Part shown: positions 24,326 through 59,849 of the stretch, in pieces
How positions within the stretch are numbered: position 1 is the stretch's first letter
Layout: each line of letters starts with the position of its first letter
From: Selaginella tamariscina
Taxonomy: Eukaryota > Streptophyta > Lycopodiopsida > Selaginellales > Selaginellaceae
Reading direction: 5' to 3'
Length of the DNA: 64,000 bases
NCBI GenBank assembly: GCA_003024785.1
Contig: PUQB01000469.1
Coordinates: 1 to 64,000 of the forward strand
The notes under the pieces: model-generated
The model's database searches: none
Seen by the model: the letters and a program-made list of their open reading frames with translations, nothing else
Told to the model about the DNA's origin: nothing
Made by a program: the position numbers and the translations under genes

Positions 24326-24356
<31 letters not shown>

Positions 24357-24526
24357 ACTGGGTGTTTACTTGACAGGACGGTGTATTATGGACAATATAA
24401 GTGTTTTGGGCCAGGAGCAAATGAGGCAGGACGTGTAAGATGGTCACATGAACTCACGGATGATGAGGCAAGGCCATTTTGGCAGTGAGCTTCATTGATG
24501 GAGCAGAATGGCTACATGAGTTATAG
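22845..24526 (+). CDS. Pectinesterase (pectin methylesterase), frame-broken
   Basis: Predicted exons: 22845-23241, 23304-23470, 23528-23734, 24086-24321, 24377-24526. The enzyme removes methyl groups from cell-wall homogalacturonan. Visible family boxes: [51 protein letters not shown] (catalytic Asp), LGRAWGAYS (LGRPW box, with the catalytic Arg) and [19 protein letters not shown] at the C-terminus. No PMEI pro-domain or clear signal peptide is seen. Breaks: phase error at the exon 1/2 join, 2-nt insertion or frame change after GQQT (about 23412), and a missing T near 24476 giving TGA at 24486 where the conserved stop is TAG at 24524. The start is uncertain. Exons 3-5 are duplicated at 42312. 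Confidence 0.85.
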
Positions 24527-26757
24527 CATTTATATAGTATATAGAAAGAATATTCAGATTTTTTGTTTAAATGTGAAATAATTAAAAAATTTAAGCTTTA
24601 GACATGGTTAATACTAAATATTGAATATTTCATTTAATCATAAGTATGAGAAAATATGTTAGTTTTAAAATATCCTATAAATAAATAAGATCAATTATTC
24701 ACATTTGTTATTAATGAAAATCAATTATAATTAAATAAAAACATAATCGTTATTTTCCAACCCCATGTCGTCCAATTAAAATCAAAATAATCAACTAAAA
24801 CTTTCATTATTAACCTTAGATCAAAATTACTGTGTTATTATTAAAAGTTACATTAAATCATTAATTGGATAGAAAAGATCTTTTAAATTAAATAAATTTA
24901 AATGAATTCAATGATTATCTTATGAATTAAATGAATAATGGATAAATGAATATATTCAATGAAATTAAATTGTTCAATGGAAGTGTGTAATCACGAACGT
25001 GAATGTATCTTTAAAGGATTTTATTATTTATTAAAGACAAATTAAGATAAAAAAAAAATTTATAAAAGAAAAAATTCATACTAAATAATAATGAAGGATG
25101 TGAATGTTTATTACGGCACTTAACAAACTTATTAAAAAAGATTGTATTTTATAATGAAATAAAAGAAAAATATAAGAAAACCTTATACTCAACAATAATA
25201 TAAATATTCAATATAAGATTTTTTTTTAATCAAAGTCTTTCAATGTTAAACTATATTAATGTTTTTTCTTTTAAAACATCTTAAATCCAAAAATAACAAA
25301 TTGTCCTATGCAAAAAAATGTGTATATATACATATGTTAATTAACAAGTATATAGTTGTTTATTCATGAGGAATGGATAATCAGTATAGTCCAGAACTGG
25401 GTCTGGCGTATAAGAAAAGGCTCCATAAACAACAAGATCTGCCCATCCAGCCATAATTGATTGGTTATCATCCTCTTTTTTATATCTTGCAGTTCGTTTG
25501 CAAACGTGTTACCAGATAACGTTTCACATGTTTCTACCGTTTCGTTAGTGTGTTCACAAAATATGTTTAAAAACACGTTTGTCCAATTTATTAATTTTTT
25601 AATTAAAATAAGAAACCTATGCATTCTTGAGAGGTTTTGTACAAATTTTTGCATGGATAAATTATTAAATAAAATCATTTAATTGTTTTTGGACCTTACT
25701 AAACATGAGTGCACAAGTGGCATTATAAATATTGTTGAGGAGATTCTTAAGAAGATTTACGAATAAAGGAATTAAAAACAAGCAAGATAAGCATATCTAT
25801 TGTCACTGATAATGAAGAATCAGCAATAATGACAAACAAATAATGTAAATAAAAATATCAGTAAAAAAGAGAATGACAAACAAAGACAGTTTGTTTAGTT
25901 TGTATTAGTTTCTTATTTGTTTTATTTGGTTTAATTTTAAATATGTAATTTGAATATTTTAAAATCCCAGCATTTTAATATTTAAATATGCTAAATATTT
26001 AAATATTTAATTTTATTTTATTTTTTGTTACACATTTGCAGGATTTTAAAAACATTTAAGAACACATTTGCAAACTCATAACCCTTTCGAAAAAATCCGT
26101 TAGCATCAACCTCTCTCACTTAGAAACACAACTGTTCTTCTCTTGAACAACTCGATTAGTAAGTCTAAACATGCCCCATGAGTAAATGCAATAGGCAAAC
26201 TTCTTATAGAATGTTTAAGTTACCTAAGGCCTCTGATGAGTATCTTCCAAGTTGTAAAGCATCAGAATCAACAGCTTCTTAAGTAGTTGGAAACGGGGAC
26301 AACTTCATACCTGACTAATCTCTTCACAAATTGCACGTACTATCTCGAGTAAGAACCTACAAAATTCTCTAATGAGTCACAGTATCTATCTATTCGATCG
26401 TTTATGCTGTTCGGGAACTAGTCAACTAAATAGCCATGAGCATAACCATGGATCTCTACACCATCAAACCTTACATATTCTCTTGTAATGACAACATATA
26501 CATGGTGTGTGCGTTATAAAGTCTTCAACAATAGATCAATAGAGTTGCTTGGTCCTCATTCCAATGAAGTCTTGTTCTATTGTGCTCAATAATTATACAC
26601 ATTAGAAAAAAATTCCAGCAACGGTATTCCTACAATCTTTAGTGTCACAATTGAACATAGTTCTCAAAAAAGGAAAAGCTTTGCTTTGTCACCAACACCA
26701 ATGTTGACTTAAGTGATCACTAGCCACAAGGAGCTCGTGTTGGACAAGAGGATCTAT
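24527..26757 (+). repeat. AT-rich flank, directly duplicated at 43223-46233
   Basis: This stretch continues the homology between the two pectinesterase copies and matches the second copy in the same orientation, apart from small indels. The main difference is that the second copy carries a solo LTR at 45478. I see no gene. Short frames such as 25364-25678 (minus) are not conserved. Confidence 0.8.
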
Positions 26758-29700
26758 GGGTGCAGGGTTGAGTATTGTAGCATCAACCCAAACTTCACCT
26801 ACTGTTGAATAAAGAATAGGTACTTGAGCTTATGCGTAAAATGAGGACAAGAACTTGTGCATCCTACTTCATAGGGTGGTGTTGTGTCCTTACCTTAAAG
26901 GTGAAGGAGGTAAAGAAGTGTGGGTAACAAATAACATAAGAAGTACCAAAAGAGCATCTCAAAACCATTGAAGTATTACATCATCAATGACCAACACACA
27001 ATAACAGCAGCTTGGCATCTTATCAAAGCACACAAAAGCAATGACATGGCCAACAAACTCTTGTTGAGGCTCCTTGAAAAACTAAGAAAACGAGTTATTT
27101 TTTGGCAAAGTCAAGTCTCTACATCCAAGCGTATCAAAAAACTATTTACAAAGTGGGATGTTGTTGACACCAACCACTACAATAATAAGATAGGAGAAGT
27201 TCCAGCACACACAGCAAATGTGGCAAAACCTTGAGAGAACACTTAGAGCCACAATAAAGAATAAGCAAAGCGCGTCATACCGGGTAAGAATGTTTGCCCA
27301 ATGGGATTTATCCCACCCACATCCTTGGTCCTATCCAAAACGTCGGCGAGAATTTATCCTGCTAGCATCCTTGATGGGATTTATCCTGCACACATTTTGT
27401 ATTTGTAAATTTAATCCTTCTCTTTCAAAAAACCAAAGAAATTGTAGTCGTGGACTTTTCTAAGGTGGTGGAAGTCAAACATCATTTATGATGATGTTCA
27501 TTTCCTACCCGATGACAATGTGTTTAATAATGAATGACCATCATGAGGACTTTCATGAATGAAACACTCAAGGAATGAAGAAAAAATAGGCACTTGTCTA
27601 GAAGTCATCCGCTACAAAGAACCTAGGTAAGTTGCCGAAGACAAAGGCTATACTAGCTTCAAAGAAAGTTGATATCAATTTCAAAACTCACATGGCTAAA
27701 GCCCCTCAATTGAACAACAATGGAGGATGCGGGTGTGCTAGCGAATTTGGTGTTCAACAATGACTTGCAAATAAACCTAAGCACAACCATGTCTTCTTTT
27801 TCTATAAGGGCAATGGAGCTGAAGTTGATCCGACATTTTAAGAAGTGGTTAGGGATACACTACCATAAACTCCGATTAATGTTGAGCCCAATGTAGAAGA
27901 GGCCAAGGATTATTTGAAGATGATCGACGACGATATGCTCAAGTAATGGTTAGACCTAGGGGAAGATCTGGCCAAGAATCTCTCTACATGCAAATGCCAA
28001 AAAGAAAAACATAAGCATCATCCCTTCTCTTATGGCAATTCTTAAGCATCAAAGAATAGAGCTTAATTGATAAGGGTTGATGCACCATCCATGACGAGCC
28101 CTACATGATATTACAGTCAGATTCAGATACCTTTTAGGATGCCATAGTTGCCTACATGAAGCCATTCTAGTTGTTTGTGATGGATTTGTGGGTATCAAGT
28201 TGAGAAAGTGCTTAAGGATTTAATTGAAATTAAGCTTGGTTGTACAACCACCTACATTGAAGGGATATTACATGAACAACAAAGATCCAAGAAGTTTGAT
28301 ACTATTGTTCACTAATGCGCCAAACTTTATCCTTTTAAACAAGTGAAAGACATTTGCTTTCATTTGGACATGCCTGTATGTGACTTGTGCAGCGCTAGCC
28401 ATAGGAAACGTCTTCACCAATGTAATTTATTTGGATATATAGGTGCTTTTCATGCAGTATCATGGACCTAGTTAGGGGTCCCTTAGAGTTGCTTGGGTAT
28501 TCAGCTATTGTATTAAAGGGTTTGTGATGAGCATGTTTATTGTCGATATGAATAAGACAATAGTTTGATGACTTATGAATGTGTATAGAACACATCACCC
28601 TAGGAAACCTATCCAGAATATACAAGAGGTATCTTGTGGAAAACATCAAGAAATCATGATCAAAATCAAAATAGGAATCAAAGGACTCTGAAGAATTTCT
28701 TTTTCTAAAGGATGAAGTTAATAAAGGAGAAGTCACCAAGAAACAATATCGAATAAAAAATCATCAGGAAAAGAAATCGATGCTAACGAACGATCTCCCA
28801 AGTGGCCAAAACTATCCCTAGCCATTTGAAGGTAACAAAGCAAAAGATTACTAAGAGGGAGCTATATATAGTTGTAAATAAGTGTAACATAAGACAATTA
28901 GTACCATGTATATTTTGTACAGAAAAAAAATTTCAAGGGCTAATGCAGCATGGGTTACATTTTATCAATATATTCATTTTCATTTTAACTCACGATAATT
29001 TTTAACAACATAAGAATGTAAAGTGAAGATTTTTATCATGCGAACAAGGTAAAAGAAGGGTATGGTAAAAATTTATTGTGCCACATGTCAGGATGATAGA
29101 ATTCATGCAGAACTTCAACATTAACGCGCTAAAGATATTGTTCTTTTGAAAATAACTAAGGTGGGTCTCAACAAGTGTTTTGAGATGTTCACACTGCAAG
29201 ATTTATTCATTCCACTAGAAGATGCAATTTCTAAACCTCAATATCTTAATTCGGCAAATGACATGGAAATGTAAATTATCATTTGGAGGGATTTGTCTTC
29301 CACTAGAAATACTAATTTCCTTAAGATTCAGAAAGTTCAAAAAGAAAAACAAGTCAATTTCCAAAACTATAGTAATGATCTAGTTGTGATTTTAAATGAG
29401 CCTCTTCAAATCAAACATTTATAATACTATTGCTAGAAGAAGACGTTATAAATGCACTTGACTAGTGTCATATCATTTCACTTGTGCAAGAAGACAAGGA
29501 TTCCAATCACCGGGTTCAACTAGGTACTCAAACTAGCATTGAGGAGGTCGTGTTAACAAGCACAATAGAGCATAAAGACATGGAGGATATTGTTAAGAGT
29601 GTGCAAGCTCAATGCTTGGCAATGAAAGTTTCAAAAAAGCCAACAACAAGATGATGAAACAACATCTTACACAAAAGTAAATTGCAGTCATTAACAATTG

Positions 29701-30216
29701 CACATCACTTATATTTGGTAAGTTTGAATAATCTTCTAGGTCGAACCTACACATCACCAAACTCACTAAAAACTTTCTCACCATAAGTTACTCATCACCA
29801 CCTAGTCTTTCTTGATATCAATGATGCTTCTCCACTTATGCAAACGTGAAGAAAGACACAAAGATATCAAATAAAGAATCATGTTGTCTCATGTTTCCAT
29901 GAAGATATTGTCTTGCACTTTATCTTGACAAAACTCTTTAATAACTTAAAACGATGAATGCGATCATGAGCATTTGGTCATGCGTTATGCTTTACAACAT
30001 TTAAGTACTCTTTGAAAAGTTTCATAATGTAACAGCATTCAAGGTGATTGACAAGAAGTTCATCTTAAATTAGGGATGTTGCATAAATGCATTTCCAAAT
30101 CACATTTAACTAATACTTCAAACCATTCTTTTTCAAAATGGAAAGTACATTTTTAAAAGGTCAGACATTTACAAGATGCTTATGAAAAATAATCTTAATC
30201 TTTAGATCTTTTTATT
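26758..30216 (+). repeat. 3.5-kb block, inverted in the second copy, with unidentified decayed ORFs
   Basis: This block matches 46235-52189 in reverse orientation. It holds pieces of unidentified coding sequence on the plus strand: about 26830-27235 (SLKYYIINDQHTI-like, WHLIKAHKSNDMANKLLLRL), about 27720-28120 (VLANLVFNNDLQINLSTTMS-like, LGIHYHKLRL-like) and about 29100-29640 (an EDVINALD-like region). Both copies keep the same text, with different stops and indels, so it was probably once a gene or element open reading frame. I recognise no domain. Confidence 0.7.
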
Positions 30217-31281
30217 AACAATACTTCTCAAAAAGCAATGCTTAATTAGATTATAATAGCGATACACCCAGTCACTTTCAAGCCATGAAAGAACCAATAA
30301 AATGAATGTGCTAGTATGTTACTTAGACATTTATCTTCGTCAAGGATTTGTTTAGATTTTATAAAGAAAATCCACCCCACTTGCTCTACCCAAATGCTTA
30401 TTTATCTTGTAATGTTGCATATGCTACACTTAAGATAATAAACCAAAAGATTTATAATTTTATTTGTATTGAGTTAGAAAAGTAGGATAAGACAATCACT
30501 TGTATCTCTAAATAGCATTAAAAGTGACTATTAAATGTATCCAAAACATTGTATGACATTGGCTTTTAGGTTGGGAATTAATCATTACATGTTTATCTTT
30601 TAATTATGGGGACATAAGAAAATTTATATGCATGATGGGCAACACTAAAGTCATACGAGAAATAAATGCGCAAAAGAATTTAATAAAGAGTAAAAAACTA
30701 AAAAATCTATTTTAAAAGATTGAAAATAATAACTATAGAATTGGTGGTTAAAATTGCATATTAAATATTAAAAAATACATTGTTGATTATATAAATATTC
30801 GTTAACTTGTGTAGTCATGCCAAATGGTTATTTTTAAATTTATCTAAATAACAAGTATTTTAAGGATGAGGATCCTTTTAGAGTTCTCAAACATTTTGCC
30901 AAAGAATTAATATTCATGTTAGATTCACCACCAAACTCACCAATGACTATGAATTCACATAAGTTCATGCGTGACCATGCGTAAGCATCTCAATAACAAA
31001 TAGAGGAAACTTTTTGTGAGAGGAAATACACTTTGGTGCAGGTTGCATCTGGGAGGCTTGTGTTGGAGTGGTCCATTTGTGATGTATGATGTTAAGATAT
31101 TTTGTAGATAGTGTTCGGACATCATCATGCTTGAATAGTTATGCATGCACTAGCAAAATACATGGTTTAGGGTTGTACGAATATGTGGCGCATGCACTCA
31201 CGTGCCCTCACGCAAGCAATAACATTTAAGTGAATTTGGGGGTGTGCCCTAGGGTAAACCTAGAGGTTCCGACTCAGGCAA
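30217..31281 (+). repeat. 5' flank of F-box copy 1, shared by all F-box copies
   Basis: This sequence matches 52190-53203 and, for its last part, 57775-58180. It contains the conserved blocks GGACGAGGATCCT-like, CACTCACGTGCCCTCACGCA and GGGGGTGTGCCCTAGGGTAA. It probably contains the promoter and leader of the F-box family (G-box-like CACGTG in CACTCACGTG). No coding sequence is supported. Confidence 0.7.
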
Positions 31282-32403
31282 ATGCATATCCACGATCTTC
31301 CAGAGGACGTGTTGAGGTACTATTTAGCACTATATTTCCCTTTCTTTTCTTTTTTCATTTGTCTTATTTTCTAGGGAAATCTTTTGCAAATTGCCCACAA
31401 GAAGTGTGATGGTTGGGCGGGCTGTATGCAAGTCATGGAAAACCTGGCTTTCTGAGCACTCATTCATTGTTAAGTATGATGCAACATCCTCACAAGAAAC
31501 CTGGATCATCTATGAATCTTCCTTCGACAAGGAACTCTATTACATGTTTAACACTGCTGATCCAATCAATCAAAAGCAGATAATTAAGGGGATTCCACTC
31601 AAATTACCAGAGAGAAAAAGGTGGACACTCCTCCAATGTTCGGAAGGGTTATTGTGTTTCGGGTATTTTGATATGACAAAGCTGAAAATTTATAACCCAG
31701 TGACAGGAACAAGCAAGGAGATAAACTGTCGCAAGGTACTTACCATAAGAAGATGCAATCTCATTTCTGACACTAACTAGCAATAAACTAACAGGGATTA
31801 GGTTTGTGCAAATTCATTTGCTACAAAGACACCGGAGAGTGGAAGGTGGTGATGATGGATAATTATGATGCACAAATGCACATATTCAGCTCAAGAACTA
31901 GGACGTGGGCACTTGGCTATAAAGCTTTGCCGGATCCCCTGCAAGGGGATGACATGGGATTGGTGTGGAATTGTAGATGCTCAAGGGATCCCATGCCCTT
32001 TTGTAATTCTGACACGGGTGCTTTCTTTTACAAGTTGACAGCGATGAGTGGACACAATTGGAGGGCAAACTCTTGGAAGACGGCGATGAAGAGGCTGGAT
32101 TGTTTCACTGTGGGACATGGGATGATCAAGATGACAAGCTCTTACTCCAACCGGGCGGTGAGAGTGTTTAAATATCATTCAAACACAAAAAGGTGGCAGC
32201 ATGTGTCTCAAACTACTCTCTCATCGTTTGATACTTCTCCATATTATTACTTTAGTGATGGTTTGGACAATGTATTTGTCTTGCCAAATTGGCATTCGGG
32301 TGTAGTCATCTACAATTATAACGTTGCTCAAGACCGGTGGAGCTGCTATCGAGGCTATGATATATTATGTGAATTGCACCACGTTCAGCTTAGGCAACCT
32401 TAA
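31282..32403 (+). CDS. F-box protein with kelch/F-box-associated type C-terminus, copy 1
   Basis: Exons 31282-31316, 31375-31735 and 31795-32403, with GT-AG introns of 58 and 59 bp. The frame is open throughout. The F-box spans the first splice: MHIHDLPEDVLR, then EIFCKLPTRSVMVGRAVCKS. The rest is an F-box-associated/kelch-like domain: LLCFGYFDMTKLKIYNPVTG, FSSRTRTWALG, NSDTGAFFY, KMTSSYSNRAVRVFKYHSNT and FVLPNWHSGVVIYNYNVAQD. Such proteins are substrate receptors of SCF ubiquitin ligases. Compared with copies 2 and 3, residues coded at about 32030-32110 are read out of frame (1 nt missing, then 2 nt missing), which swaps about 27 residues but restores the frame. It may be translatable yet altered. 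Confidence 0.82.
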
Positions 32404-32490
32404 GTAAGATAGCTTTTGAGGAGTCGCTATGGGGGCTATGATATATCTCATGTGAATTGCACCATGTTCAGCCTCAGGCAACCTTAAGTA
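32404..32490 (+). repeat. Partial repeat of the F-box gene end
   Basis: Right after the stop, the sequence repeats a short version of the last codons: GGCTATGATATATCTCATGT, then ATTGCACCATGTTCAGCCTC and AGGCAACCTTAAGTAAGATA. It is a local tandem duplication of the gene's 3' end. Copy 3 has the same and copy 2 a shorter form, so the event predates the block duplication. Confidence 0.75.
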
Positions 32491-33263
32491 AGATAGCTTC
32501 TAATATGTAATCTTTTAATTGGAAAACATTTGACATTGAAACTGTTAAAGATAAATTAACATATATGATTTACATGAAAAAATCTAAATTAAATGTTTAC
32601 ACATAATCATTCGGAGCGTTTCACACATCAACATTAACATTTATAGGGATAAGTACCAAAATATATACGTGAAACAAGAAATTTTAGAGCTTAAGAGAGT
32701 TTTAGGTTAGAGAAATTTATATTGTTAGAATATTATGATAACAAGTATAATATAAAATAATGTCTGAAGAGAATTTCATGTTTTAGATAATGCTAATATT
32801 ATAAATTATATAATATACTCTCAAACATGACTTTTTTTCATAAATGTTAATTGTTAAAGAACTACTATAAGTAAATAAGCCTTTAAGAGAATTTTTGTGT
32901 TTTAGAGAATGTCGTTCACTCCAATTATTAGAAATTTATAATTTCTTATTAAAACTTGGGTAAAAGTTTATTTATATAATTTAAAATGTTATAGTTATTA
33001 ATATATATTCATGTCTAATTTAAGAATTTTTCAAATTTCATATTTAATTTGATAAAATACTTAAAATCTATGTATATTTTGGTGATTTTCAAATATTTGT
33101 ATTATAATTACAAATGCGTACGTATGTACTTAGCGCATAGAAAGATGCACATGTTTGTATGTGCATGTGTGAATGATTATTGCTTGAAAAAGGGTTCGTG
33201 ATCGTGATTGAACTTGAAATAAACCACTCTTTTAAAATCTTGAACATTCTCCACTGGCGTTTA
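32491..33263. other. AT-rich 3' flank of F-box copy 1
   Basis: No gene is seen. The part to about 32930 matches the flank of copy 3 (59390-59831). It ends in GTTTA, which also follows the right end of the DNA transposon. Confidence 0.6.
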
Positions 33264-33319
33264 GGGGAGTGTCGCCATTTTGGAGGCTTGGGGCCCAGGA
33301 GGCCTGGGCTCGAATATTC
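33264..33319 (+). repeat. Left terminal inverted repeat of the DNA transposon
   Basis: It begins GGGGAGTGTCGCCATTTTGG, followed by AGGCTTGGGGCCCAGGAGGC and then an AATATTC palindrome run. It pairs with the reverse complement of the right end. Confidence 0.65.
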
Positions 33320-33939
33320 AAGAATATTCTAGAATATTTTGGAATATTCTTTTGGTCAGTATTGGCCTCAGTCGGCAAAAAAGAATTCTATTAAAACTGT
33401 TGTATTTCTATCTTATTTTTTTTTATATTAGCTTAATTTATTACTCAATATACATTAGCTAAAGTTTCTTCTTCATCTTAAGTAAAGTGCAGTTCTCGAA
33501 CCACCAGCTAGGCTTGGACGTGGAGGTGTTTGAGTAGGTAATTTCTGTCTAATGTTCTCTGCGAGCTTGTTTGTTGCCAACCTAGAGAGTTTGAAACTCT
33601 TCTCGGTTCCTATAATATTCCTTCCGAGCTCGACGGCAGCTAACAACGATGACCCGGTTCCGGAACCAATATCTCAGACTAGGTCGCAGGTCTACTGAGA
33701 CGCTCGATCAAAAGCTGCATGAGTCAAACACTCTTCGGTTGAATCATCATCCTGCACAAACTTCCATTAGGATAAACAAAGCAAAGTACTTCCTTACCAA
33801 GCCTCCTGAAAACGGTCGGCGGTGTCGACGAGGATCGTGTTCGTCAATGCCAGAGGGTTTGGCCTCTTCGACTTCTTCTCAGAGCTTTGCAGCATCAAGA
33901 GAACTAACAAGTATCCTGCCACATAGACCAAGTTAAACT

Positions 33940-36638
33940 TAACTTGAATAGCTAGCTCCTTAATTTTGTCACGGTATCCCCAGCCTCGTGCACGGTAACG
34001 CTGTAAGTCCCTGCAACCTCCAAGTTGATTACTGCAGCCGCCTGAATCACCGCCAATACAGAAGGAGAACTCGCGAAGACGACCATGAAACCACTCACTG
34101 CCAAGTGCATTCCACTAAACTGCAAGGCCTCCTCAAACTTCACGGATCTAGCTGCACAATGTCCTTGTTGATGCTAGCACCTCCATATACAAGCTCATTG
34201 GGCAAGTCGAGGATGATGAGGTTGAAGCCGTATTCACCTACCACTTCCTGGAACACGTTTGTGACTCAACCGTATGTTTGTCAACCTGTTGTCGGAGCTT
34301 GGTGTACACCTCTGTCTGGCTCGAAGAAAGACCTGCTCATCTCCTCCATATCACACAGCCAGGTCGTAGGATCCACGGGATGCAGCCAGGGTCGGGATGA
34401 AGGTCATCAGGTTCCTTGATGTCCAAACTAGCTACAAGTGGCTGCCCTCATTGATTGTAAAGTCGATGCCGGCGGAGGTGCTGTAAAAGAGCTTGGTCCC
34501 GCTCCCGATCCCTTTGCAGGTGTAGTTGTCTTTTGCACCGTCTTCTTCATCTTGCTCTTCTTGATAGCCTCTACTTCTCCGGCTCCCAAACACGGTAAAT
34601 CATTGCGTGCACGTTGAATAGTGAGCTCTCCCAAGCTGGTGGCTGTTGCGACGGACAGTCGAGCCAGAATGGAACATGCTCCCGTTCAAAGGTGTTAGAG
34701 CTCCTCTGCTCTTCGACCACATGTGAGGCTCGCTTGTATGATCTGTCCACAGCTCATCATCTAAGACGGTGCATTTCTTCGCCAGTATGAACCTGTAACA
34801 CAAAGTCAGACAGTAGCAATGCTGGATTGAAAGCTTACCTCCATATCATCCGACGCGCAGATTCCTCACGCTCCAGAAACTCATTCGGCTCCATCGAATA
34901 AGTGAACCGTATGCAGTCATGGAAGGGCTGAAAGACCAGGCACTTGCTCCGAATTCTCATCTCGTCAAACCAGCTCATGAAGTCGACATCCGTTCCAACT
35001 TCTTCACCATCCTCTCGCAACCCCTTAAGGATCTGAATGGCTTCCTCGCGCACAGCCTTCCAATATAAGTCCAAGGTGAACCACTTGATCCACTCTTTGT
35101 CCTGCATGCCCGGTAGCCCAAGTGTCTGTTGTTCTGCCTTGGATTCGAGACGGGTGAGCTTGTTCAGTATCGGAGTCGCAGCATGTTTGGAATCTTCGCC
35201 TTGACATCGCATACAGCTTCTCAATGCCCATCCAGCGACACTGCTTATGAGAGATGTTCGTCACCTTCTGGAACCACTCCTCCCCCAAGTCTGGGTCTAT
35301 GATGGAGAGGAACTTGTGCATACGCTTGTCATGCTTCTTGTACACTAGCTGCTTCAGGTTCACCTCAACCTGTGAATTGCCCTTAGCACTGGTGACTGCT
35401 CTGTCGAGATCATCGTCGATCTCGTTCTGCACATAGAAAAGTTAAAAATTCTTTCCTATAAATTAAATCGGAGGTTACCTTGAAAAGTATCTTTGCGCAG
35501 ATCAGGTTCGGAAGAGGATGCCAAGCCGTCTTTCCTGCTGAACTCTCCTTCCACTTCCGCACCTCAAGACGATCAACCTCCGTGAGTGACTCGAGGATTT
35601 TCTGAGTTCCTTCTGTACTAGTGCAGACCGCCTTTACAGCGAGGAGAATATGTGGTAGCGTTGTTTCCACAGATGTTGCTGAAGATCTGTTCAACGAAAC
35701 TGTAAGTCTAAACTCTTAACAAAAAGAAAAGAAAATACTCACATGTTAATCGATTGGAACATCGAAACCAGTTGAAGAATGTCGAGGTTCTCCGTGGAGA
35801 TGAAACTCGATCGAACGCGAATAGCCCATCGCTGGTTGTCCTCTGCATCCTCTCGGTACAGCTTCTGCAAAGCCTGTAGCCTATGGTTCCCGTCCCAGCA
35901 GCTAAACTTCCTGTTTGAGAGCCTTGAAGCCCACTGTTTGTACTCCGGCTGAGTAAGAGCTTGCTCGAAAGACCGGTGCTGCTCGTACTGAATCGTGTCC
36001 TTCGACAGCTCCGATAGCTCCTCAGCAGTGAGTCGATCTCCGATGGACAGAATGAACAAGGCCGTGTTGCGTAGATAACCAGCCTTCTTCAACGATGACA
36101 CCAGCCTGTCCAAGTCCCCTGGGTTCACTCGTCGAACCACCTCGTTGGAATGTATTCTGCAGATGGGCACATCAGGAGGATCACCAAGTCCCTTGATAGT
36201 AATTTTGTCGAGCAGGTTTGCTGAGCTCTCCAAATGCAGGCTCGCCGGTATGCTGTATAACTCCTTCGGCTCCTTATCGCTCTTCGCCTTCTTGCCTTTT
36301 GAATCAGCTTTCCCGCGGCCTCTCTTTTTGCTGACTGCCTCCTCCAAGTCGTCCTCGCTAGCTTCAACTGCCTCTGTCATCTGCACTTGCTCGTTCAGGA
36401 CTGCAACCTCAGCGGATGAAGGAGGCAACTGCGACGAGCTCTCCGGGAAATCTGTGATTGTTGGTGGAGGCTGTTCTTGCTCAACTGCTACTACTCCAGA
36501 CTGAGTCACTGGAGGATCCTCCTTTGCTACATTAGATGGTTCTCCTCTCTTGCCTCGCTTCTGCTTCGATATCCTCTTCTCTTCCCGTGGCTCTTCATCA
36601 GGCGCAGTCTCTAGTAGACGTTTTGAAGCTCTCACCAT
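33940..36638 (-). pseudogene. ParB-like domain protein with possible methyltransferase-like tail, frame-broken
   Basis: Exon 1 (36638-35743) gives a basic, Lys/Glu-rich N-terminus with nuclear-localisation-like runs (EEKRISKQKRGKRG, KKRGRGKADSKGKKAK). A ParB/sulfiredoxin-fold-like domain follows: ICRIHSNEVVRRVNPGDLDR, SLKKAGYL, then the hallmark CWDGNHRLQALQKLY. Donor GTGAGT. Exon 2 (35686-35479) and exon 3 (35426-34839) add helical text (WFTLDLYWKAVREEAIQIL) with one frame switch near 35150. Exon 4 begins near 34796 (FILAKKCTVLDDELWTDH). Further down, YGFNLIILDLPNELVYG (about 34240-34190) and FEEALQFSGMHLAVSGFMVV (34143 down) resemble the motif-IV region and next helix/strand of a SAM methyltransferase. 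Its catalytic motif would be DLPN and not DPPY, so this is tentative. Several frameshifts occur. The gene is divergent from the transposase. Its role in the element is unknown. Confidence 0.55.
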
Positions 36639-36716
36639 TTTGTAAACTCTGGAAAGCAAACACACAAGTCAATTGATTAGGAGACAAAATAAAAAAACAA
36701 ACAAAGATGACTAACC

Positions 36717-38625
36717 TTGTGGCTGCCGACTCAAGCTAGATGGTGCCGTCGCTCTCAGTCGGCACAGAGATGTAGAAGAGCATTTCCTGCCGACTGAGAC
36801 AGGTTAGTGCCGACCCTCTCAGACGGCGAGCTAGGATCTCCTAAAATAAAAAAATAAAAATAAAAAATGACTAACCTTGTGGCTGCCGACTCAAACTAGA
36901 TGGTGCCGACCCTCTCAGTCGGCACAGAGATGTAAAAGAACAAGAATCGAACCCGCAACCTCTACGCTACAAGCTAATCACGTTCTTAAACTCTTCCTCT
37001 CCTGGGAAAAAAACTTCCTAGGAAAAAAAGTAAGTTAACAGGACTTGTGGCTGCCGACTCAAACTAGATGGTGCCGACCCTCTCAGTCGGCACAAAGATG
37101 TAAAAGAATAAGAATCGAACCCACAACCTCTACACTACAAACTACAAGAGCTAACCAACTTGTCAATTCTATAAACATGAGAGCATATTGGCATGTGCTG
37201 CATATTGACCTGGATTAGTGAAGTGTTAATCACGTCCTTCACCTGCTCCTGCCTAATCCGTCCCTAACCCGTGGCTGCCGACTCAAACTGTCCCTAACCC
37301 GTGGCTGCCGACTCAAACTAGATGGTGCCGACCCTCTCAGTCGGCACAAAGATGTAAAAGAACAAGAACGAACCCACAACCTCTACGCTACAAACTACAA
37401 GAGCTAACCAACTTGTCAATTCTATAAACATGAGAGCATATTGGCATGTGCTGCATATTGACCTGGATTAGTGAAGTGTTAATCACGTCCTTAACTGCTC
37501 CTGCCTAATCCGTCCCTAACCCCGTGGCTGCCGACTCAAACTAGATGGTGCCGACCCTCTCAGTCGGCACAAAGATGTAAAAGAACAAGAATCGAACCTA
37601 ACCCGTGGTTGCCGACTCAAACTAGATGGTGCCGACCCTCTCAGTCGGCACAAAGATGTAAAAGAACAAGAATCGAACCCACAACCTCTACGCTACAAAC
37701 TGCAAGATGTAAAAGAACAAGACTCGAACCTAACCCCGTGCTGCCGACTCAAACTAGATGGTGCCGACCCCTCAGTCGGCACAAAGATGTAAAAACAAAA
37801 ACGAACCCACAACCTCTACGCTACAAACTGCAAGATGTAAAAGAACAAGACTCGAACACACAACCTCTACAATACAAACCACAAAGGCTAACCAACTTGT
37901 CAATTCTGTAAACACAAGAGCATATTGGCATTTGGTGCATATTGACCTGGCTTAGTGAAGTGTTTGTTAGCAAGAATCAAACCCGCAACCTCTAGTTACA
38001 AACCACAAGGGCTAACCAACTTGTTAATTCTATAAACACTTATAAACATTGGCATGCAGTATATATGTACACCTTTGTAGCTAAATCCTTAATTTATTAG
38101 GTAAGTTTAGTTAACGATTTAGGATTTAGTGTTACATTTCATAAATATTCTTAATCAAGTGTAATCATTCCTATTTTGCCATTCCAAAAAAGGATTTGAA
38201 TCCTTTTTTGTCATTCCAAAAAGGATTGTTAAGGTTATAAAGATAACTAACTATAAGGTGAAATATATGTCACTATTGCCAATATGAATTCTATACTTTG
38301 TATGATGGAAAGAAAAGAAATGAACTAACCTTTGGATACATCAATCGCATGTACTTGCCATTTTATTAAGTTAACATTATAACTCTGTAAAAAGAAATAC
38401 TTGAGCCACAAAGCAAAAAAATAACACAATTTCAAAATACCTTGTGGTTGCCGATTGAACCAGGATGGTGCCGTCACTCTCAGTCGGCACAAATGAGAAG
38501 ACACATTAACTCTGAAAAAAAAATATTATGATACAGATACTTGAGCCGCAAAGAAAAAATAAACAAATCAAAAATACCTTGTGGCTGCCGACTGAACTAG
38601 ATGGTGCCATCACTCTCATCGGCAC
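36717..38625. repeat. Array of hairpin plus tRNA-like repeat units
   Basis: About ten copies of a 45-bp unit reading GTGGCTGCCGACTCAAACTA, GATGGTGCCGACCCTCTCAG, TCGGCAC occur near 36717, 36787, 36876, 37044, 37299, 37522, 37603, 37736, 38440 and 38577. TGCCGAC and GTCGGCA arms can fold into a hairpin. Most copies are followed by sequence whose reverse complement is GTTGGTTAGCTCTTGTAG, then about 15-20 bp, then GTGGGTTCGATTC. The last contains the GGTTCGA core of a Pol III B box, and the first resembles an A box at normal spacing. The units therefore look like minus-strand tRNA-derived SINE pieces in tandem. The same GTCGGCA word also occurs inside both transposon ends. Confidence 0.6.
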
Positions 38626-38833
38626 AAATGGAAGACTCTTATCTATGGGATTTCGACACAAATGGGAAGACATTAACTTGAAAAAAAAAACATTGTGATA
38701 CGGATAATTGAGCCGCAAAGAAAAAAATAAAGTTAAACGAGTCTCTGACCTACCGTAGATATACAAGGAAATGTCATTTATGAACTTCCCCAAAGAAAAA
38801 GCACAAAGAAGTACTTGGGGATGAATCGCAAGG

Positions 38834-41538
38834 ATGGCTGCTACCATTGGACACACCCGAGCACAACACACTGGCATGTTTCGGCGCGAGTCAGTCGAAG
38901 TTCATGTGTCGGACATCTCAAATGCATCAATCCTACCTGCCCCTACTTGGGCTTTTGAGAAGAAAGCAAATGAATGTCACTTCAAGGGTGCTGTGGAGAA
39001 GGCAAAGACAACTGAGACAAGCAAAGTAATAGGCATGAAATGTAAGCATTGTGGAGAGGAGCCATGATTGCTAGTGCACACTTGTCCGGCTTATGTGTAC
39101 TACATTTTGCCATACGACATTTCTTTTACAAGGTTGTTCATTCATAGAGGTGTTCATCAACATCCAGTCAGCCCCTCAGTGTCAGCTTCAAACGTCAGCG
39201 TGCCAGATCTAGTGTCAGCAACATGGTAAAGAACAGTCCGCAAACCAATCAACGAGTGGTTGAGTTTCAAGCTGCGCGTGAGCTCATCTTTGAAAACTTT
39301 TCAAGGAAAGAAGAATCTCGTACACTGGTTTACTCTCAAAACTTGAACCTCTAACAAACCATCGAAGTATTTTTCTTTAGATCTCTACAACACTGACGTA
39401 AACCTTTCCTTTAGATCGGACTGGATTACACAATCAAGACAGAAGGAGACACACTTTAGAGAGGGTTACGAGGGTCTTCTGGAGCTGAAGACAAAGTTGC
39501 CAATACCTTTCATTCACGTTATCATGTTCCAGGGATGGAACTGCATGGTGCTGAGGAGAAGCTCTGATCTTCAAAATGACAGTTGAGGGACCGGGTTCAG
39601 GAGTTGACTACATCAGAAGGTGTCAAAGTGGAGGAGACCTTCATGATCAATGGGTGGTTCTGGACCACACGCACCGTATACCAGACTGGGCGACAATTGG
39701 AATACACCTTTATGATCCATTGTAAGTTGTAGAACTCTTCATAACACTTTCTAATCTTAGTTATCTAATGCTCTCTTACAGTGTCAGATCCATGGTGACT
39801 ATAGCTTACGTAGATATGTGCCGCGAAGATAATGTTGCAGTGCTGAAGTTCTTGAACACAATGCTAGAGGTTTGTAAGAAGCAGGGTTTGGAGAATGTCA
39901 ACTTTGCTGGTTTCATGTCGGATGAGGCTGGAGCGATATGGATAGCCTTGCGCCAAGTATTCAACAACGGAGAAAAGATGAAAGGGAGAGAAAGAAGCTG
40001 TCTGTTTCACTTTATGCAATCCGTGTGTCAGGTGACAAAGAAATGAATCGCAGAAGAACATCGCGAAGAACACATGAAACTTGCTCGTGCCTGGCCTGCA
40101 GCACTGAATGAACAATCTAAGAAAGAACAACTAGCAATTCTCGAGTCTTTTTGGGAAGGACGAGCGTCAAACATTCGAGCTTTGAAGACATGGCTGTCTT
40201 GGTGGATTAGGCATGAGGACCACATCTCCATGGCGAACTGAGAGACATGACAGAAGAAGGACTCGCGAGCGTTCCAACTACAAACAATGCTGAAGTGATC
40301 CACACGGAGCAAGAAGAGCAAGATTGGCCAAAAGAGTACCACTGCTGGAGGCGACAATGTTAGACCTCACCGATGCAGTTATGCAGAGTGCGAAGGTGAA
40401 AGCGGCAATAGAAGGGAGGTATACAGGGTCAGGTCCTTCGAAGGAAACTCTATTGAAAGAGTGCAACGCAAACTCTCTGAGGGGAAAAGTGTATCTCCAT
40501 CAACAATTATCAATCTAGTGGAAGGCGAGGAACACTTGACCAGCCCGGAGTTCACGAGTACCACTAACGTTCAAGTGCAAACTGTTAGGAGAACAATCAC
40601 AGGAACAGAACAGTCTGTCGACGTTCACACAGACATGATGTAGAGTACACAGAGCGGGTGGTCCAAAACAACAGGAGAAAGAGGTTAAGGTTCGAAGAGG
40701 TTTTGGAGAGAGAGATTGCTCAAATAGAGTGGGCCATCAGATGAATCGGAGCATCAGTAAGGTTAAGTGTTTGAGGATGAATCAGGAAGGAACTGCTCTG
40801 TGTGGAAAACCAATCGGTTATCCAAGCAAGTGCCAGCACCAGGATTCTATGGAAAACGAATGTACATTGATGCCTTAGGGAATGAGGAGTATGTACAACA
40901 GATGATGTGGTTCTGCCCAAAAGATTCAGGGTGTTTCACACGGCTAAACGGCAAAATTCTTCAGTCACGAATTCCAACACCACCAACGTTTGGCCTGTGC
41001 TCAAGGAAACGAAGCTGACAAGTGAGGAGGTCAGAGAACTACAGGATGCAGGCTTTGTTTTGGAAGGTTTACAGGGGACGGCAGGAAGAGTAGATAGGGT
41101 CAGAAGGACAAAACACCATCGCCACCACGTGGAGCTGGATCTACAACAATTCCACCTTTCGAAGGACGTATGGTCCGGACTTCAACAAAAATGTCTAAGG
41201 AACAAGAGAAGAATTTTCACAAGGCCAAGACGTTTTTAGGTCGTGTGAGAAATGTTGAAGTGACAGTTAAAGGACGGAAGGAGGCTTTCGTTGTGTCGGC
41301 AGGAAATGACTCTGCAAAGGTAACTGTTAGTACTTATCCTACATACAATTGTTCTATCTTTCAGAAGAGCAAAAGTTGGAGCCCATGTGTACACATGTAC
41401 TTCGTCTATAGCCATGTGCTTGGCTTGAACCCGGACGTCACATATTTTCTACAAAGGCGATCGCTCAGTGAGATAGAGGTCCACCGTTTGCTGATGAATT
41501 ACAACAGAGTTCATGACCCACCGGTGCTACAAGGATAA
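38834..41538 (+). pseudogene. MULE-like transposase with SWIM-type zinc finger, frame-broken
   Basis: The N-terminal part (38834-39230) has a MKCKHCGE zinc-binding start, then TGA at 39065 (a Trp position in context), then the same frame continues VHTCPAYVYYILPYD and IHRGVHQHPV. Splicing or frame changes lead to 39770-40045: MVTIAYVDMCREDNVAVLKF, FAGFMSDEAGAIWIALRQVF, then CLFHFMQSV. This gives candidate catalytic Asp residues and the C-x2-H element of MULE transposases. TGA at 40044. Frames to 40255 (SFWEGRASNIRALKTWLSWW) and 40640 continue. The last part (41170-41538) has NCSIF...WSPCVHMYFVYSH, a SWIM-like C-x-n-C-x-H. The enzyme would cut and paste the element. At least four stops or shifts. 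Confidence 0.6.
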
Positions 41539-41686
41539 ATGGTTTAGGGTTTAGGATAATGCTTTATTAAGCTAGTCGGCATATATTAAGCCAGTCGGCA
41601 TATTAAAAAAACTTATATATTCTAGAATATTCTTGAGAATATTCTAAAATATGTTAGAATATACCTGGAATATCCGCGAATATACT

Positions 41687-41736
41687 AGAATAATATGAAG
41701 CCTCCTGAGCCGGAGCCTCCTTTTCGCCGAGACCCC
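41687..41736 (-). repeat. Right terminal inverted repeat of the DNA transposon
   Basis: The reverse complement starts GGGGTCTCGGCGAAAAGGAG, then GCTCCGGCTCAGGAGGC. It pairs imperfectly with the left end at 33264 and is followed by GTTTA. Confidence 0.65.
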
Positions 41737-41739
41737 GTT

Positions 41740-42311
41740 TAGGGTTGTACGACTATTTCATGTATGCACTCGTGTGCATTCACACAAGTAGTAACATTTA
41801 AGTGAACTTGGGGGCATTGCCCTAGGGTAAATCCAGATGCATATCCATGATTTGCTAGATGATGTGCTGAGGTACTATTTAACAATCACAACAGACCCCA
41901 AAACAAGATTGTATCCCAAAAAATCAAATGAGAAACTTTTTAGCTGTCTTATAGTTGAAATTAAATTTTTGTTTGACTGTTCAACCATCGGGTTAATTGA
42001 TTAGAAAATTGAGTTGTTATCATAATTCCATACAAGATTTAGTTTATAGATAAGAAGTAATTTCATTTTTCTTTTTTCATTTTCATCTTATTTTCTATGG
42101 AAATATGTTTCTAATGTGTTTGTTGGGTGGCTTGTATGTAGCTTTCTAGCACTCGTTCATTGCTAAGTGTGATGCAACATCCTCAAAGGAGACATGGATC
42201 AATCTTGTTCTGGCTGTACTAATTGTATTTTAGATGTTTAACATTGCTAATCCAATAAATCAAAAGCAGATAATTAAGGGATTCCAATCAATTACCCAAG
42301 AAAAGGGTGGT
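41740..42311 (+). pseudogene. F-box gene fragment (5' part), fused to pectinesterase sequence
   Basis: This matches the F-box family from its upstream flank (GTTTAGGGTTGTACGA) through the first exon (MHIHDLLDDVLR) and part of exon 2 (HSFIVKYDATSS region diverged; then ATGTTTAACATTGCTRATCC and AAGCAGATAATTAAGGG). It stops at AAAAGGGTGG. The next base belongs to pectinesterase exon 3. It is more diverged than the other three copies and has extra inserted sequence at about 41880-42060. Confidence 0.75.
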
Positions 42312-43222
42312 TTTATTCGTGTGGTTTCTATGGAGCTCAGGATACACTCTTTGATTATCAAGGCGTCACTATTACCGCGATTGTTACATTGAAGGCTCCA
42401 TTGACTTCATATTTGGGCACGCAAAGTCTGTTTTCAGGGTGTGTGTGCGTGCGTGTGTGATATATCGGAAAAATTATCAAATTGACCCTTTAGTTTTACA
42501 TAATTATAGTTTTACATAATTATCAAACTGACCTTTTGGTTCTTTATAATTCTCAAATTGGCTAATACACACATACACCCACACACACATATAGTTTAGA
42601 TATATTTTTGCTTTAAACAATATATTGCATGTGTGCGGGTGTATGTGTCTGTTCTGATTATTAATAAATTTGACTCAGGGTCAATTTGATAATTATATAA
42701 AGCTAGAGGGTTAGTTTGATAATTATATGAAAGTAGAGGGTAATTTAATAATTATATCAAACTATTGAAACTATAGAGCCATTTTTTTTTCAGGGATGTG
42801 AGGTACATGCAATTGCAGAGAGCACAGGCTCGGTGACAGCACAGAACCGAGGCGATCCACAAGAGAATTCCGGCTTCATCTTTATTGGCTGTACAGTTAC
42901 TGGTACTGGCACTATCTTCTTAGGAAGAGCATGGGGAGCATATTCCACAGTTATTTATCTCTTCACTTATATGGGCAACATTATAGTTTCTGAAGGCTGG
43001 AGCGACTGGGGCGTACAACACAGACAGCAGTACGTGTGTGTGTGTGTGTGTGTGTGTAGAACTGATGTTTACTTGACAGGACGGTGTATTATGGACAATA
43101 TAAGTGTTTTGGGCCAGGAGCAAATGAGGCAGGACGTGTAAGATGGTCACATGAACTCACGGATGATGAGGCAAGGCCATTTTTGGCAGTGAGTTCATTG
43201 ATGGAGCAGAATGGCTACATGA
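42312..43222 (+). pseudogene. Pectinesterase fragment (copy 2, exons 3-5)
   Basis: Near-identical to 23607-24526. It begins in mid-exon with TTTTATTCGTGTGGTTTCTA and keeps introns with the same sequence, so it arose by DNA duplication and not from RNA. Breaks: one C missing in the GGCCGT codons of copy 1 (about 42362) and one C missing in the last exon (GTGAGTTC for GTGAGCTTC). It has the T that copy 1 lacks, so each copy's C-terminal break is private. There is no promoter or exons 1-2. Confidence 0.85.
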
Positions 43223-45477
<2,255 letters not shown>

Positions 45478-46135
45478 TGTCACGACCCGATACAGGATAC
45501 AGGATTCCGGATACATGATATGGGTTGCAGGACTTTCCTACAGGATTTCGGATACAGGATATGGGTTGCATGACTTTCTTATAGGATATTCCTACCAGGA
45601 TTCCGGACACAGGATACGGTTGCAGGATATTCCTACAGGATATGCCACAGGATATGCCTAGAGGATAAGGGACATGTGGACTCATCTTAGCCTCTGCATG
45701 CATGCAGTCACTTTGCATGCATGCAACCACTTTTAGCACTCATGCCTAGATTAGCTCTTGAAGTTGTGAGCATAAAAGCTCCGACCTAATTGTTGTACAA
45801 TCAGTTACTATTAACACCAGTCTTACTACAATCAATCTCGTCTTGTCTTGTTCTTGTCTTGTTTCCTGTCCTGCTCCTTTTCGCTCCTGTTTCCTGTCCT
45901 ACTCCTGGATCCTGTCCTGCTCCTGTCTTGTTCTGGATCCTGTCCTGTTTCTGTCTTGTTCCTGGATCCTGTCCTGCGCCTTCCTGTCTTGCTCCCGGAT
46001 CCTATCTTGATCCTGTCTTGCTCCAGGATCCGTCCTGTTCCTGTTCCTGTCCTGCTCTCGGTCCTGCTCCTGAGTCAAGCCTTCATGTTCTTGGAATCCT
46101 ATTTCTCTTCCTGGTTCTTGGATCGTGGCTTGACA
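45478..46135 (+). mobile_element. Solo LTR, 658 bp
   Basis: It starts TGTCACGACCCG, ends GGCTTGACA, and is flanked on both sides by GTTCT (45473-45477 and 46136-46140). Copy 1 has the uninterrupted site at 26650-26665 (TAGTTCTCAAAA), which proves an insertion after the block duplication. The LTR contains a TATA-like GCATAAAAG (about 45770-45780) and two kinds of internal tandem repeats. One is a GGATACAGGATTCCGGATAC type at 45487-45665. The other is TCCTG-rich at 45840-46080. There are also two TGCATGCATGCA (RY-type) sites at 45695-45725. The open frames inside are repeat translations. Confidence 0.9.
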
Positions 46136-46789
46136 GTTCTCAAAAAAGGGAAAGCTTTGCTTTGTCACCAACACCAATGTTGACTTAAGTGATCACTAGC
46201 CACAAGGAGCTCGTGTTGGACAAGAGGATCTATCAATAAAAAGAATCTAAAGATTATTTTTCATAAGCATCTTGTAAATGTCTGGCCTTTTAAAAATGTA
46301 CTCCTCCATTTTGAAAAAGAGGTTTGTTTTCTCTTAGTATTGGTTAAATGTGATTTGGAAATGCATCCATGCAACATCCCTAATCTAAGATGAACTTCTT
46401 GTCAATCACCTCAAATGTTGCTGCATTATGAACATACAACTTTTTAAGGAGTGCTTCAATGTTGTAAAGCATAACGCATGATCAAATGCTCATGATCGCA
46501 TTCATCATTTTAAGCTTATTAAAGAGTTTTGTCAAGATAAAGTGCAAGACAATATCTTCATGAAAACATGAGGTAACATGATTCTTTATTTAATATCTTT
46601 GTGTCTTTCTTCACGTTTGCATAAATGGAGAAGCATCATTGATATTAAGAAAGACTAGGTGGTGATGAGTAACTTGTGGTGAGGAAGTTTTTAATGAGTT
46701 TGGTGATGTGTAGGTTCAACCTAGAAAATTGTTAGGAATAGATGTAAATGACAGTTCATCCCTTTGGTCTAATGTCGGATGCGGCACTT

Positions 46790-47480
46790 TAACTAGTTAG
46801 GTAATAATCGTCTGTAACTTCCATCATCTTGTTGTTGGCTTTCTCTAAAACTTTCATTACTAGGCATTGAGCTTGCACACTCTCAACAATATCCTCCATG
46901 TCTTTATGCTCTATTGTGCTTGTTAACATGACCTCCTCAATGCTAGTTTGAGTACCTAGTTGAACCGGTGATTGGAATCCTTGTCTTCTTGCACAAGTGA
47001 AGTGATATGACACTAGTCAAGTGCATTTATAACGTCTTCTTCTAGCAATATTGTTGATAAATGTTTGATTTGAAGAGGTTCATTTAAAATCACCACTAGA
47101 TCATTACTATAGTCTTGGAAATTGATTTGTTTCTCTTTTTGAGCTTTCTGAATCTCAAAGAAATTAGTATTTCTAGTGGAAGACAAATCCTCCAAATGAT
47201 AATTTGCATTTCCATGTCATTTGCCAAATTAAGAGATTGAGGTTTAGAAATTGCATCTTCTAGTGGAATGAATAAATCTTGCAAAGTGCTGGACATCTCA
47301 AAACACTTGTTGAGACTCGCCTTAGTTATTTTCAAAAGAACAATATCTTTAGCAGCATTAATATTAAAGTTCTGCATGAATTCTGTCATCCTGACATGTG
47401 GCACAATAAATTTTTACCATACCCTTCTCTTACCTTGTTTGCATGATAAAAATCTTCACTTTCCATTGTTATGTTGTTAA
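46790..47480 (-). pseudogene. Unidentified decayed coding region
   Basis: Minus-strand frames (47404-47096, 47195-47013, 47013-46789) form a nearly continuous unknown protein text with KITKASLNKCFEMSSTLQDL, NEPLQIKHLSTILLEEDVIN and GTQTSIEEVMLTSTIEHKDM segments, mostly helical and charged. The same text is found at 29100-29640 in the other copy. No domain is recognised; a transposable-element or host-gene origin is open. Confidence 0.45.
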
Positions 47481-48057
47481 AAATTATTGTGAGTTAAAAT
47501 GAAAATTGAATATAATATAATGTTTACCTTGATAAAATGTAACCCATGTCTGAGCTAAATGCTGCATTAGCCCTTGAAATTTTATTTTATGTGCAAAATA
47601 TACATGGTACTAATTATCTTATGTTACACTTATTTACAACTATGTATGACTCCCTCTTAGTAATCTTTTGCTTTATTACCTTCAGAATGGCTAGGGATAG
47701 TTTTGGCCACTTGGGAGATCGTTCGTTAGCATTGATTTCTCTTCCTGATGATTTTTTATTCGATATTGTTTCTTGGTGATTTCTCCTTTATTAACTTCAT
47801 CCTTTAGAAAAAGAGAATTCTTCAAAGTCCTTTGATTCCTATTTTGATTTTGATCATGATTTCTTGATGTTCTCCACAAGATACCTCTTCGTATATTCTT
47901 AAATAGGTTTGCTAGGGTGATGAGTTCTATACACATTTATAAGTCATCAAACTATTGTCTTATTCATATCGACAATAAACATGCTCATCATAGACCCTTT
48001 GATACAATAGCTGAATACCCAAGCAAACTCTAAGGGACCCCTAACTAGGTCCATGAT

Positions 48058-48960
48058 TGTCATAGTTTTTACTATGACTCAACCCTTTACTTTGAGGTTT
48101 GACTGTTGTTACCTACTGGATTATGTGACGAACCCTAGATGTAGAAGAAACAGGCCCATAGTGCACTTGGGTATCTAGTGATGGTCCGGCCGGGTGTCGT
48201 TAGGTATTTGCAAGAAACTCTAGGCGAAGCTAGCACTTCCATTTAGAGAACCCTCCCCCGTTTTGACGTTCTAGGTTAGGGTTCTTCGCAAGTTATAGCT
48301 TGTCAAAATAAGGGTTAAGGACACCCCTAGGGTTGACCTAACCCTAGGGCTGCCCTAACCCCACGTCCTAAACTCCCCCACCTAGGGTTAGGTTTAGAAT
48401 TAGGTTAGGACAACCATTTTCTCTAAGGGCTGGCATTTCCGTGCCAGCCCACTTACTCACTTAGGTAAACAGGGGGGGGGTTCGTCACATAAATAAGGTA
48501 GAGTATATGTAGTGAGGCTTCCTGGGTTCAAAAGAGAGCTTGTTAACCTCCTACCGGTGCAAGCTAAGCTTGTGTCGTCAAGGTGCAACCCTCCGTTGTG
48601 CGCCCAAACTTCCACACGACAGGGGTACAACCCACCCTAGGGTTAGACTATCCTTATCGTTGGCAGGATCTTGCCTTTGAGATAGGGGCACGTCACTTCC
48701 AAGGAGTTAGTCAAATTCCTTGGTCCGAAAACCTCGCAAGCTCAAAGGCATTGCCCGAGTTCACGTTCCGCAAAACTAGTGGTTGAGGCCTTGCTCCGGC
48801 AGCCTCAACCACGCCAAGCTAGGAACAACACCTAAGGCTCGCTAGTCCGTGTATCCTGATTCACAAGGTGAGTTTCATTCTTGGACTTAGTCAGTTAGGG
48901 GTTTAACTTCCTAAGGCTTGGGTTCTTAATATGAGTTATTTTAACCAGATTCTATGGGGT
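48058..48960 (+). mobile_element. LTR-A insertion, right end unclear
   Basis: It begins TGTCATAGTTTTTACTATGA and follows the 49047 copy through the CTCTAGGCGAAGCTAG and ACCGGTGCAAGCTAAG-type blocks. It interrupts the inverted block between GGTCCATGAT and sequence equivalent to copy 1 at about 28440. No clean CA end or target duplication is visible, so the right end is probably truncated. A run of nine G lies at about 48472-48480. Confidence 0.65.
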
Positions 48961-49046
48961 TTCCCTGTGTGAAACAACACCTATAATATTCAAATAAATT
49001 ACATTGGTGAAGACGTTTCCTATGGCTGGCGGTGCACAAGTCACTA

Positions 49047-50624: not shown

Positions 50625-50699
50625 ACTACAGGCATGTCCAAATGAAAGCAAATGTCTTTCCACTTGTTTGAAAGGATAAAGTTTGGTGCATTTTGTATT

Positions 50700-52140: not shown

Positions 52141-52189
52141 AATAGTAGGTGAAGTTTGGGTTGATGCTACGATACTCAACCCTGCACCC

Positions 52190-57765: not shown

Positions 57766-57774
57766 TGAGCAATG

Positions 57775-59831: not shown

Positions 59832-59849
59832 ATTGTCCCAGCAACTTCA

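Follow-up and report, generated by a model that had tools for sequence, protein, structure and literature searches.

A two-gene DNA transposon of Selaginella tamariscina with a MULE-like transposase and a predicted ParB-like DNA-methyltransferase fusion protein

The 64,000-nucleotide stretch of DNA that we analysed (hereafter the window) contains a dead copy of a two-gene DNA transposon. The transposon belongs to a high-copy family in the S. tamariscina genome, termed family A, and a second family, termed family B, carries the same pair of genes at 59-61% protein identity. One gene encodes a transposase, and the divergent gene on the opposite strand is predicted to encode a ParB-like region joined to a DNA methyltransferase region. 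Short DNA sites are repeated between the genes and near the ends of the element. Our preferred reading, which we hold with a little less than even confidence, is that the fusion protein binds these sites in its own element, controls both genes and marks element DNA if its methyltransferase is active.

The element in the window and its copies in the genome

An initial annotation of this DNA had described a unit of about 8.5 kb bounded by imperfect terminal inverted repeats, in which AATATTC palindromes lie close to either end and two divergent genes carry characteristic motifs. All of these features are present in the window. The GTTTA flanks that it had proposed are replaced by an 8-bp target-site duplication, CGTTTAGG, which corrects the limits of the element to 33266-41735. 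The main features of the window copy are as follows.

33266-41735, no strand: 8,470-bp transposon copy, a broken family-A member; its ends and 8-bp duplication are common to other copies
33258-33265, no strand: left target-site duplication CGTTTAGG, 8 bp, from copy comparison
41736-41743, no strand: right target-site duplication CGTTTAGG, 8 bp, from copy comparison
33266-33350, plus strand: left terminal inverted repeat, followed by GAATATTC palindromes at 33312-33349
41617-41735, minus strand: right end, with AATATTC palindromes and an imperfect inverted repeat of the left end
38726-41538, plus strand: remnant of the transposase gene, with a zinc-binding-like N-terminal part, a DDE-like core and a SWIM-like end (labels assigned by eye)
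33461-36638, minus strand: gene for the ParB-like and DNA methyltransferase protein, six exons in a model from copies L018, L009 and L011
35745-36287, minus strand: ParB-like region of exon 1, with the WDGNHRL codons at 35878-35897; motif, with weak profile support
33461-33790, minus strand: region of the last exon, with its upper limit approximate; includes methyltransferase motif I, which reads DIGSGTGSSLLAAVELGRNIIGTE in better copies; PF01555

Both genes are broken in the window copy, a point that the initial annotation had missed. The GAATATTC palindrome was found at both ends in all four family-A copies, and in the single family-B copy, in which it was counted. Exon 1 of the minus-strand gene (35739-36638) is about 100% identical to that of L018 and the methyltransferase end is 96-98% identical; the window copy is a mosaic, which arose perhaps by gene conversion.

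The element lies within a cluster of tandem and inverted duplications (window 23605-32926 versus 42310-59834), which includes repeated kelch-like genes such as those at 30855-32926 and 57774-59834 (93% identical). In a comparison with the kelch-like duplicates as a candidate empty site, the right flank is homologous to the upstream region of the duplicated gene from the target-site duplication onward (41737-41884 versus 31165-31329). The left flank shows no such homology, so that these duplicates provide no clean empty site. Reverse transcriptase open reading frames of retroelements are found at 9727-10809 and 63365-63997. Matches to PPR and Kelch profiles were below the cut-offs, and Rfam gave no match in the window at gathering scores.

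We searched the genome (300.7 Mb in 1,391 contigs) with the left end of the element and scored 40 places out of 502 first-look candidates. These 40 places, the window's own included, showed 96-100% identity, and 20 of the other 39 were fetched for comparison. The ParB-methyltransferase half aligned in all 20 fetched copies. The transposase half aligned over at least 2 kb in 16 copies and over about 1 kb in two (L011 and L024), and gave no alignment within the stretch compared in the last two (L017 and L025). The search bears out the two-gene unit, with both divergent genes present in 14 of 14 fetched copies that have two ends. When the window copy is added to these 14, the 8-bp duplication is exact in 10 of the 15; the remaining five show a one-base mismatch (L009 and L019), a two-base shift (L010), no match (L014) or a duplication that is cut off (L021).

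Left flanks, compared for 19 of the 20 fetched copies, are common within the pairs L018/L026 and L024/L025, and the 20 copies therefore represent at most 18 independent sites. The members of each pair have identical left flanks though they lie on different contigs, which suggests that they are haplotype duplicates in the assembly. The left halves of L009, L013, L028 and L018 are 99-100% alike. A search with family-A exon 1 scored 131 of 1,814 candidates, and the first 69 of the 132 matches listed (window included) were full length, free of stop codons and 99-100% identical. Such near-identical copies point to recent activity of the transposon.

The two genes and their inheritance

The transposase model consists of three exons that encode about 1,020 residues. 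In the window its frames are broken, and residues 1-111 were not found in this copy. The gene could be modelled in 13 of the 20 fetched copies and reads to its end in none of the 13, so no fetched copy is demonstrably autonomous. The longest reads extend 968 aa before a stop (L027) and 952 aa (L009), and the third exon of L013 has an open frame of 607 aa that includes the SWIM-like end. MULE transposons generate target-site duplications of 8-11 bp, and the 8 bp found here is within that range. No Pfam match to the MULE profile was obtained in either family at E values up to 10 (filters drop most matches above 0.1), and neither FAR1 nor FLYWCH was among the Pfam matches listed. The SWIM profile scored 15.4 bits, and 18.5 bits in family B, against a cut-off of 19.6. 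The MULE-like transposase of the initial annotation thus keeps its 8-bp duplication and its CxC..CxH SWIM-like end, while the MULE profile gave no match and SWIM fell below the cut-off. We do not class the element as a MULE because no MULE profile matched; judged by its motifs, the transposase is a predicted DDE/SWIM-type enzyme that is MULE-like.

The minus-strand gene proved longer than initially annotated. Beyond exon 1 our model contains five further exons, overlooked before, which reach the methyltransferase region, and the spliced gene reads through 992-995 aa in three of the 20 fetched copies (L018, L009 and L011). The window copy is broken in frame outside exon 1. The Pfam family N6_N4_Mtase (PF01555) matched the last exon of L013 (E 1.5e-9, 38.6 bits) and the family-B methyltransferase (E 7.3e-10, 39.6 bits), in both cases against a cut-off of 26.7 bits, with a match that covers the cofactor-binding half only. 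The best PDB sequence matches of this region include MboIIA, a putative modification methylase, DpnA and CcrM, and the next are N4-cytosine methyltransferases at E 0.07-0.3. Catalytic motif IV is DLPN in both families, as opposed to the (D/N/S)PP(Y/F/W) of beta-class methyltransferases. Because the aromatic residue is absent from this motif, the methyltransferase may be inactive and its catalysis is uncertain.

The ParB-like part contains two boxes in the right order, a likeness at the level of motifs. No Pfam or PDB sequence match to a ParB fold was found for this part. Comparison with ParB by hhalign gave P values of.042 and.059, no better than mismatched control pairs (.014,.034 and.22). 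We also built custom HMMs and counted how many of 2000 shuffles reached the real score. With plasmid-F YubM and four solved ParB proteins, the counts were 1 for family A and 193 for family B; with 11 phage sequences they were 259 and 57, and with both sets joined 18 and 64, in the same order. AlphaFold, run on three sequences, produced no usable ParB-fold model (pLDDT 38.6). A phage search yielded no ParB match, and with the methyltransferase it returned 569 records at E up to 1, the best among the matches listed being 4e-6. Neither the ParB-like part nor the methyltransferase region had a confirmed relative in pattern scans of viral contigs. We regard the ParB label of the exon-1 region as plausible on the strength of its motifs. 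The ParB companion of the initial annotation was accordingly right as to the motif and incomplete as to the gene, which ends in a methyltransferase region, and the fold was not confirmed by profiles or AlphaFold. The gene is better described as encoding a predicted ParB-like DNA-methyltransferase fusion, with a putative beta-class (N4C/N6A) domain.

A PF01555 search of the genome gave 739 candidates, of which 150 were scored. Every scored match exceeded the cut-off, and most of their open frames could be assigned by inspection to one of two classes. L031 belongs to the second of these (family B) and has the same gene pair arranged head to head. This layout was found in seven of the eight family-B loci examined (L031 and L037-L042, but not L032), and in each of the six family-B loci fetched as best matches the transposase start faces the ParB-like exon. 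The diverged loci L029 and L030 also contain the head-to-head pair. A search with family-B exon 1 scored 128 of 1,575 candidates, and the first 63 of the 130 matches listed were full length, free of stop codons and 99-100% identical. At L032, positions 1184-8184 hold two family-B ParB-methyltransferase genes that face each other, with no transposase match in the stretch; this locus is perhaps an inverted pair of elements. Among the five loci of this set (L029-L033), L032 and L033 are rearranged, and neither shows signs of a nested origin.

Protein identity between family A (L018/L027) and family B (L031) is.59 for the ParB-like region (175 codons),.60 for the linker (378 codons),.61 for the methyltransferase (231 codons) and.59 for the transposase (954 codons). 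At codon positions 1, 2 and 3 the families differ by close to.30,.24 and.62, respectively, in every module compared. Residues 1-117 of the fusion protein were excluded from this comparison, with 6 comparable codons,.33 of them identical. Equal divergence of the modules, together with this codon pattern, would be expected if the genes were inherited as a unit under purifying selection, and it argues against nesting. The modules compared thus appear to belong to two genes that are inherited together under purifying selection. That the genes might instead come from two separate, nested insertions, as the initial annotation had allowed, is vanishingly improbable: order and orientation are the same in family-A copies, in L029 and L030 and in seven of eight family-B loci, the modules have diverged equally between the families, and family B refutes nesting directly by keeping the layout at its level of protein identity. 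The two-gene DNA transposon first annotated from the window is therefore well supported, both by its copies and by a second family with the same layout.

Repeated DNA sites and a proposed working of the element

The element carries repeated copies of a short site, overlooked in the initial annotation, which are located in the window copy as follows.

33370-33377, plus strand: left-end AGTCGGCA site, at a conserved distance from the left end
36724-38593, no strand: array of inverted TGCCGACT-25-AGTCGGCA pairs between the genes
41574-41600, plus strand: right-end AGTCGGCA sites, two in the window copy, with the same orientation in both families

When all 8-mers were counted, AGTCGGCA was the commonest one common to L018 (16 occurrences) and L031 (15 occurrences). 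The 55.5 kb of window flank contain one. For AGTCGGCA/TGCCGACT, the L018 element has 16 occurrences, whereas 200 shuffles average 0.2 and never exceed 2. In the 15 family-A copies, the intergenic region contains most of the sites, chiefly arranged as inverted pairs of the form TGCCGACT-N-AGTCGGCA, in which N is nearly always 25 (exceptions 21-24, 55 and 73). At seven family-B loci N is 22-25, and some sites are unpaired. The distance from the left end to its site is 108-109 bp in the 14 two-ended copies that were fetched, 105 bp in the window copy and 114 bp in L031, the one family-B copy measured. One or two right-end sites are found 134-179 bp from the end in family A and 162 bp from it in L031; L012 gave none, and its stretch contains Ns. 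The orientation of the end sites is identical in both families. Pair spacing and the placing of the end sites are conserved between families.

We propose that the transposase would move the element and that the fusion protein would recognise the TGCCGACT-(22 to 25)-AGTCGGCA pairs within the promoter region that both genes share, as well as the sites near each end. Through these sites the fusion protein would identify copies of the element and, once bound, would control transcription of both genes. An active methyltransferase would also place a methyl mark on element DNA, which could favour expression or transposition. A shared intergenic region filled with paired sites is expected of a self-regulating DNA-binding protein. 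By analogy with the VANC proteins discussed below, the array would be read by one of the two element proteins, most simply the ParB-like one, although the sites could be the transposase's instead. The initial annotation had suggested that a ParB-fold partner could bind the ends or mark the element; the fusion protein may do either, and a candidate site set and a candidate marking domain are now available for both roles. Given a methyltransferase-bearing gene and conserved repeated sites, it is possible that the element marks copies of itself or regulates them. We are more doubtful of a bolder version, in which a plant transposon lineage addresses itself through a parS-like array and uses an altered-motif enzyme to write N6A or N4C on its own copies, and so escapes or exploits host silencing.

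Other roles for the fusion protein have to be weighed against this proposal. The strongest competitor, possible but less probable than our preferred reading, is that the methyltransferase is catalytically dead and that the protein serves solely to bind specific DNA sequences, as a regulator or anti-silencing factor, much as VANC does. The replacement of D/N/S-PP-Y/F/W by DLPN in both families fits this explanation, as does the resemblance of arrays in non-coding regions to VANC targets. However, the cofactor motif DIGSGTGSS is retained and the whole domain is conserved like the rest of the protein (.61), which is more than expected of a decayed enzyme; the same conservation would equally fit a domain that is dead but still binds cofactor. 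It is unlikely that the protein is instead a transposition co-factor, which with the transposase binds and bridges the ends while methylation state tunes transposition. The presence of AGTCGGCA near both ends, at conserved distance and orientation and in addition to the array, would suit such a role, but the majority of sites lie between the genes rather than at the ends, and there is no sign that the two proteins meet. We give very little credence to the idea that the fusion gene is a passenger that was captured by chance and does nothing for the element. The giant transposons of Ectocarpus often carry accessory genes, according to the available text of PMC12477816. Yet the fusion gene is kept in 14 of 14 fetched two-ended copies, and the modules compared show a codon pattern of purifying selection across two families.

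Relation to known systems

MULE transposons have an 8-bp duplication and a SWIM-like C-terminus; the element described here has the same duplication and, at motif level, a SWIM-like end that scores below the profile cut-off. Phage proteins provide a second point of comparison. In 80 viral_contigs loci that encode ParB-methyltransferase fusions, the likeness is in the order of domains, with the ParB-like part first and the beta-class methyltransferase last (four reads inspected by eye). DPPY or SPPY is present in 58 of the 80 reads, many of which are short, and a DPPY-like motif occurs together with DxFxGxG in 43 of these 80, many again short. The phage reads inspected have a short linker, whereas the element protein has a long linker, an insertion in its ParB-like part and DLPN.

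In Arabidopsis, VANDAL transposons encode VANC proteins, which bind short motifs arrayed in tandem in the non-coding parts of the encoding element and cause loss of DNA methylation, as described in the available text of PMC5735166. The two systems are alike in combining a transposon-encoded protein with arrays of short motifs in intron, intergenic or terminal non-coding regions (PMC5735166), a functional analogy only. They differ in that VANC is not described as a methyltransferase fusion in the available text (PMC5735166), and in that site binding is putative for the element described here.

The closest reported case is the brown-algal transposon Sola1-1_Ec32 from Ectocarpus, for which an accessory protein with ParB and methyltransferase domains is given in the available text of PMC12477816; the same text cites green and red algal cases (Iyer 2011; Petroll 2025). 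The initial annotation knew of no plant DNA transposon with a ParB-fold partner. Both elements are DNA transposons in which a single protein, of 1104 aa in the alga and 992-995 aa in S. tamariscina, combines a ParB-like domain with an N4C/N6A methyltransferase domain and is encoded on the strand opposite the transposase. The algal element is a Sola1 transposon of 21.5 kb, whereas the plant element has a MULE-like transposase, is 8.5 kb long and is represented by two families with a conserved site set; these likenesses and differences rest on the published description rather than on protein sequence. Compared in the same way with the algal accessory proteins in general, the plant protein has a methyltransferase recognised by profile and a ParB part recognised at motif level. 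No land-plant or MULE case of the combination was named in titles among the matches listed from the open-access literature. What is new here is the MULE-like transposase, the two co-diverged families and the conserved sites, while a transposon gene for ParB and methyltransferase domains was already known. The proposal is directly testable, since it specifies a candidate reader, a candidate writer and candidate sites, and a single genome offers many near-identical copies. With a partner transposase that differs from the reported Sola1 case, and with two co-diverged families that share a conserved short site, this element raises the possibility that transposon-encoded DNA-modifying proteins are a recurrent route by which mobile DNA manages its own silencing.
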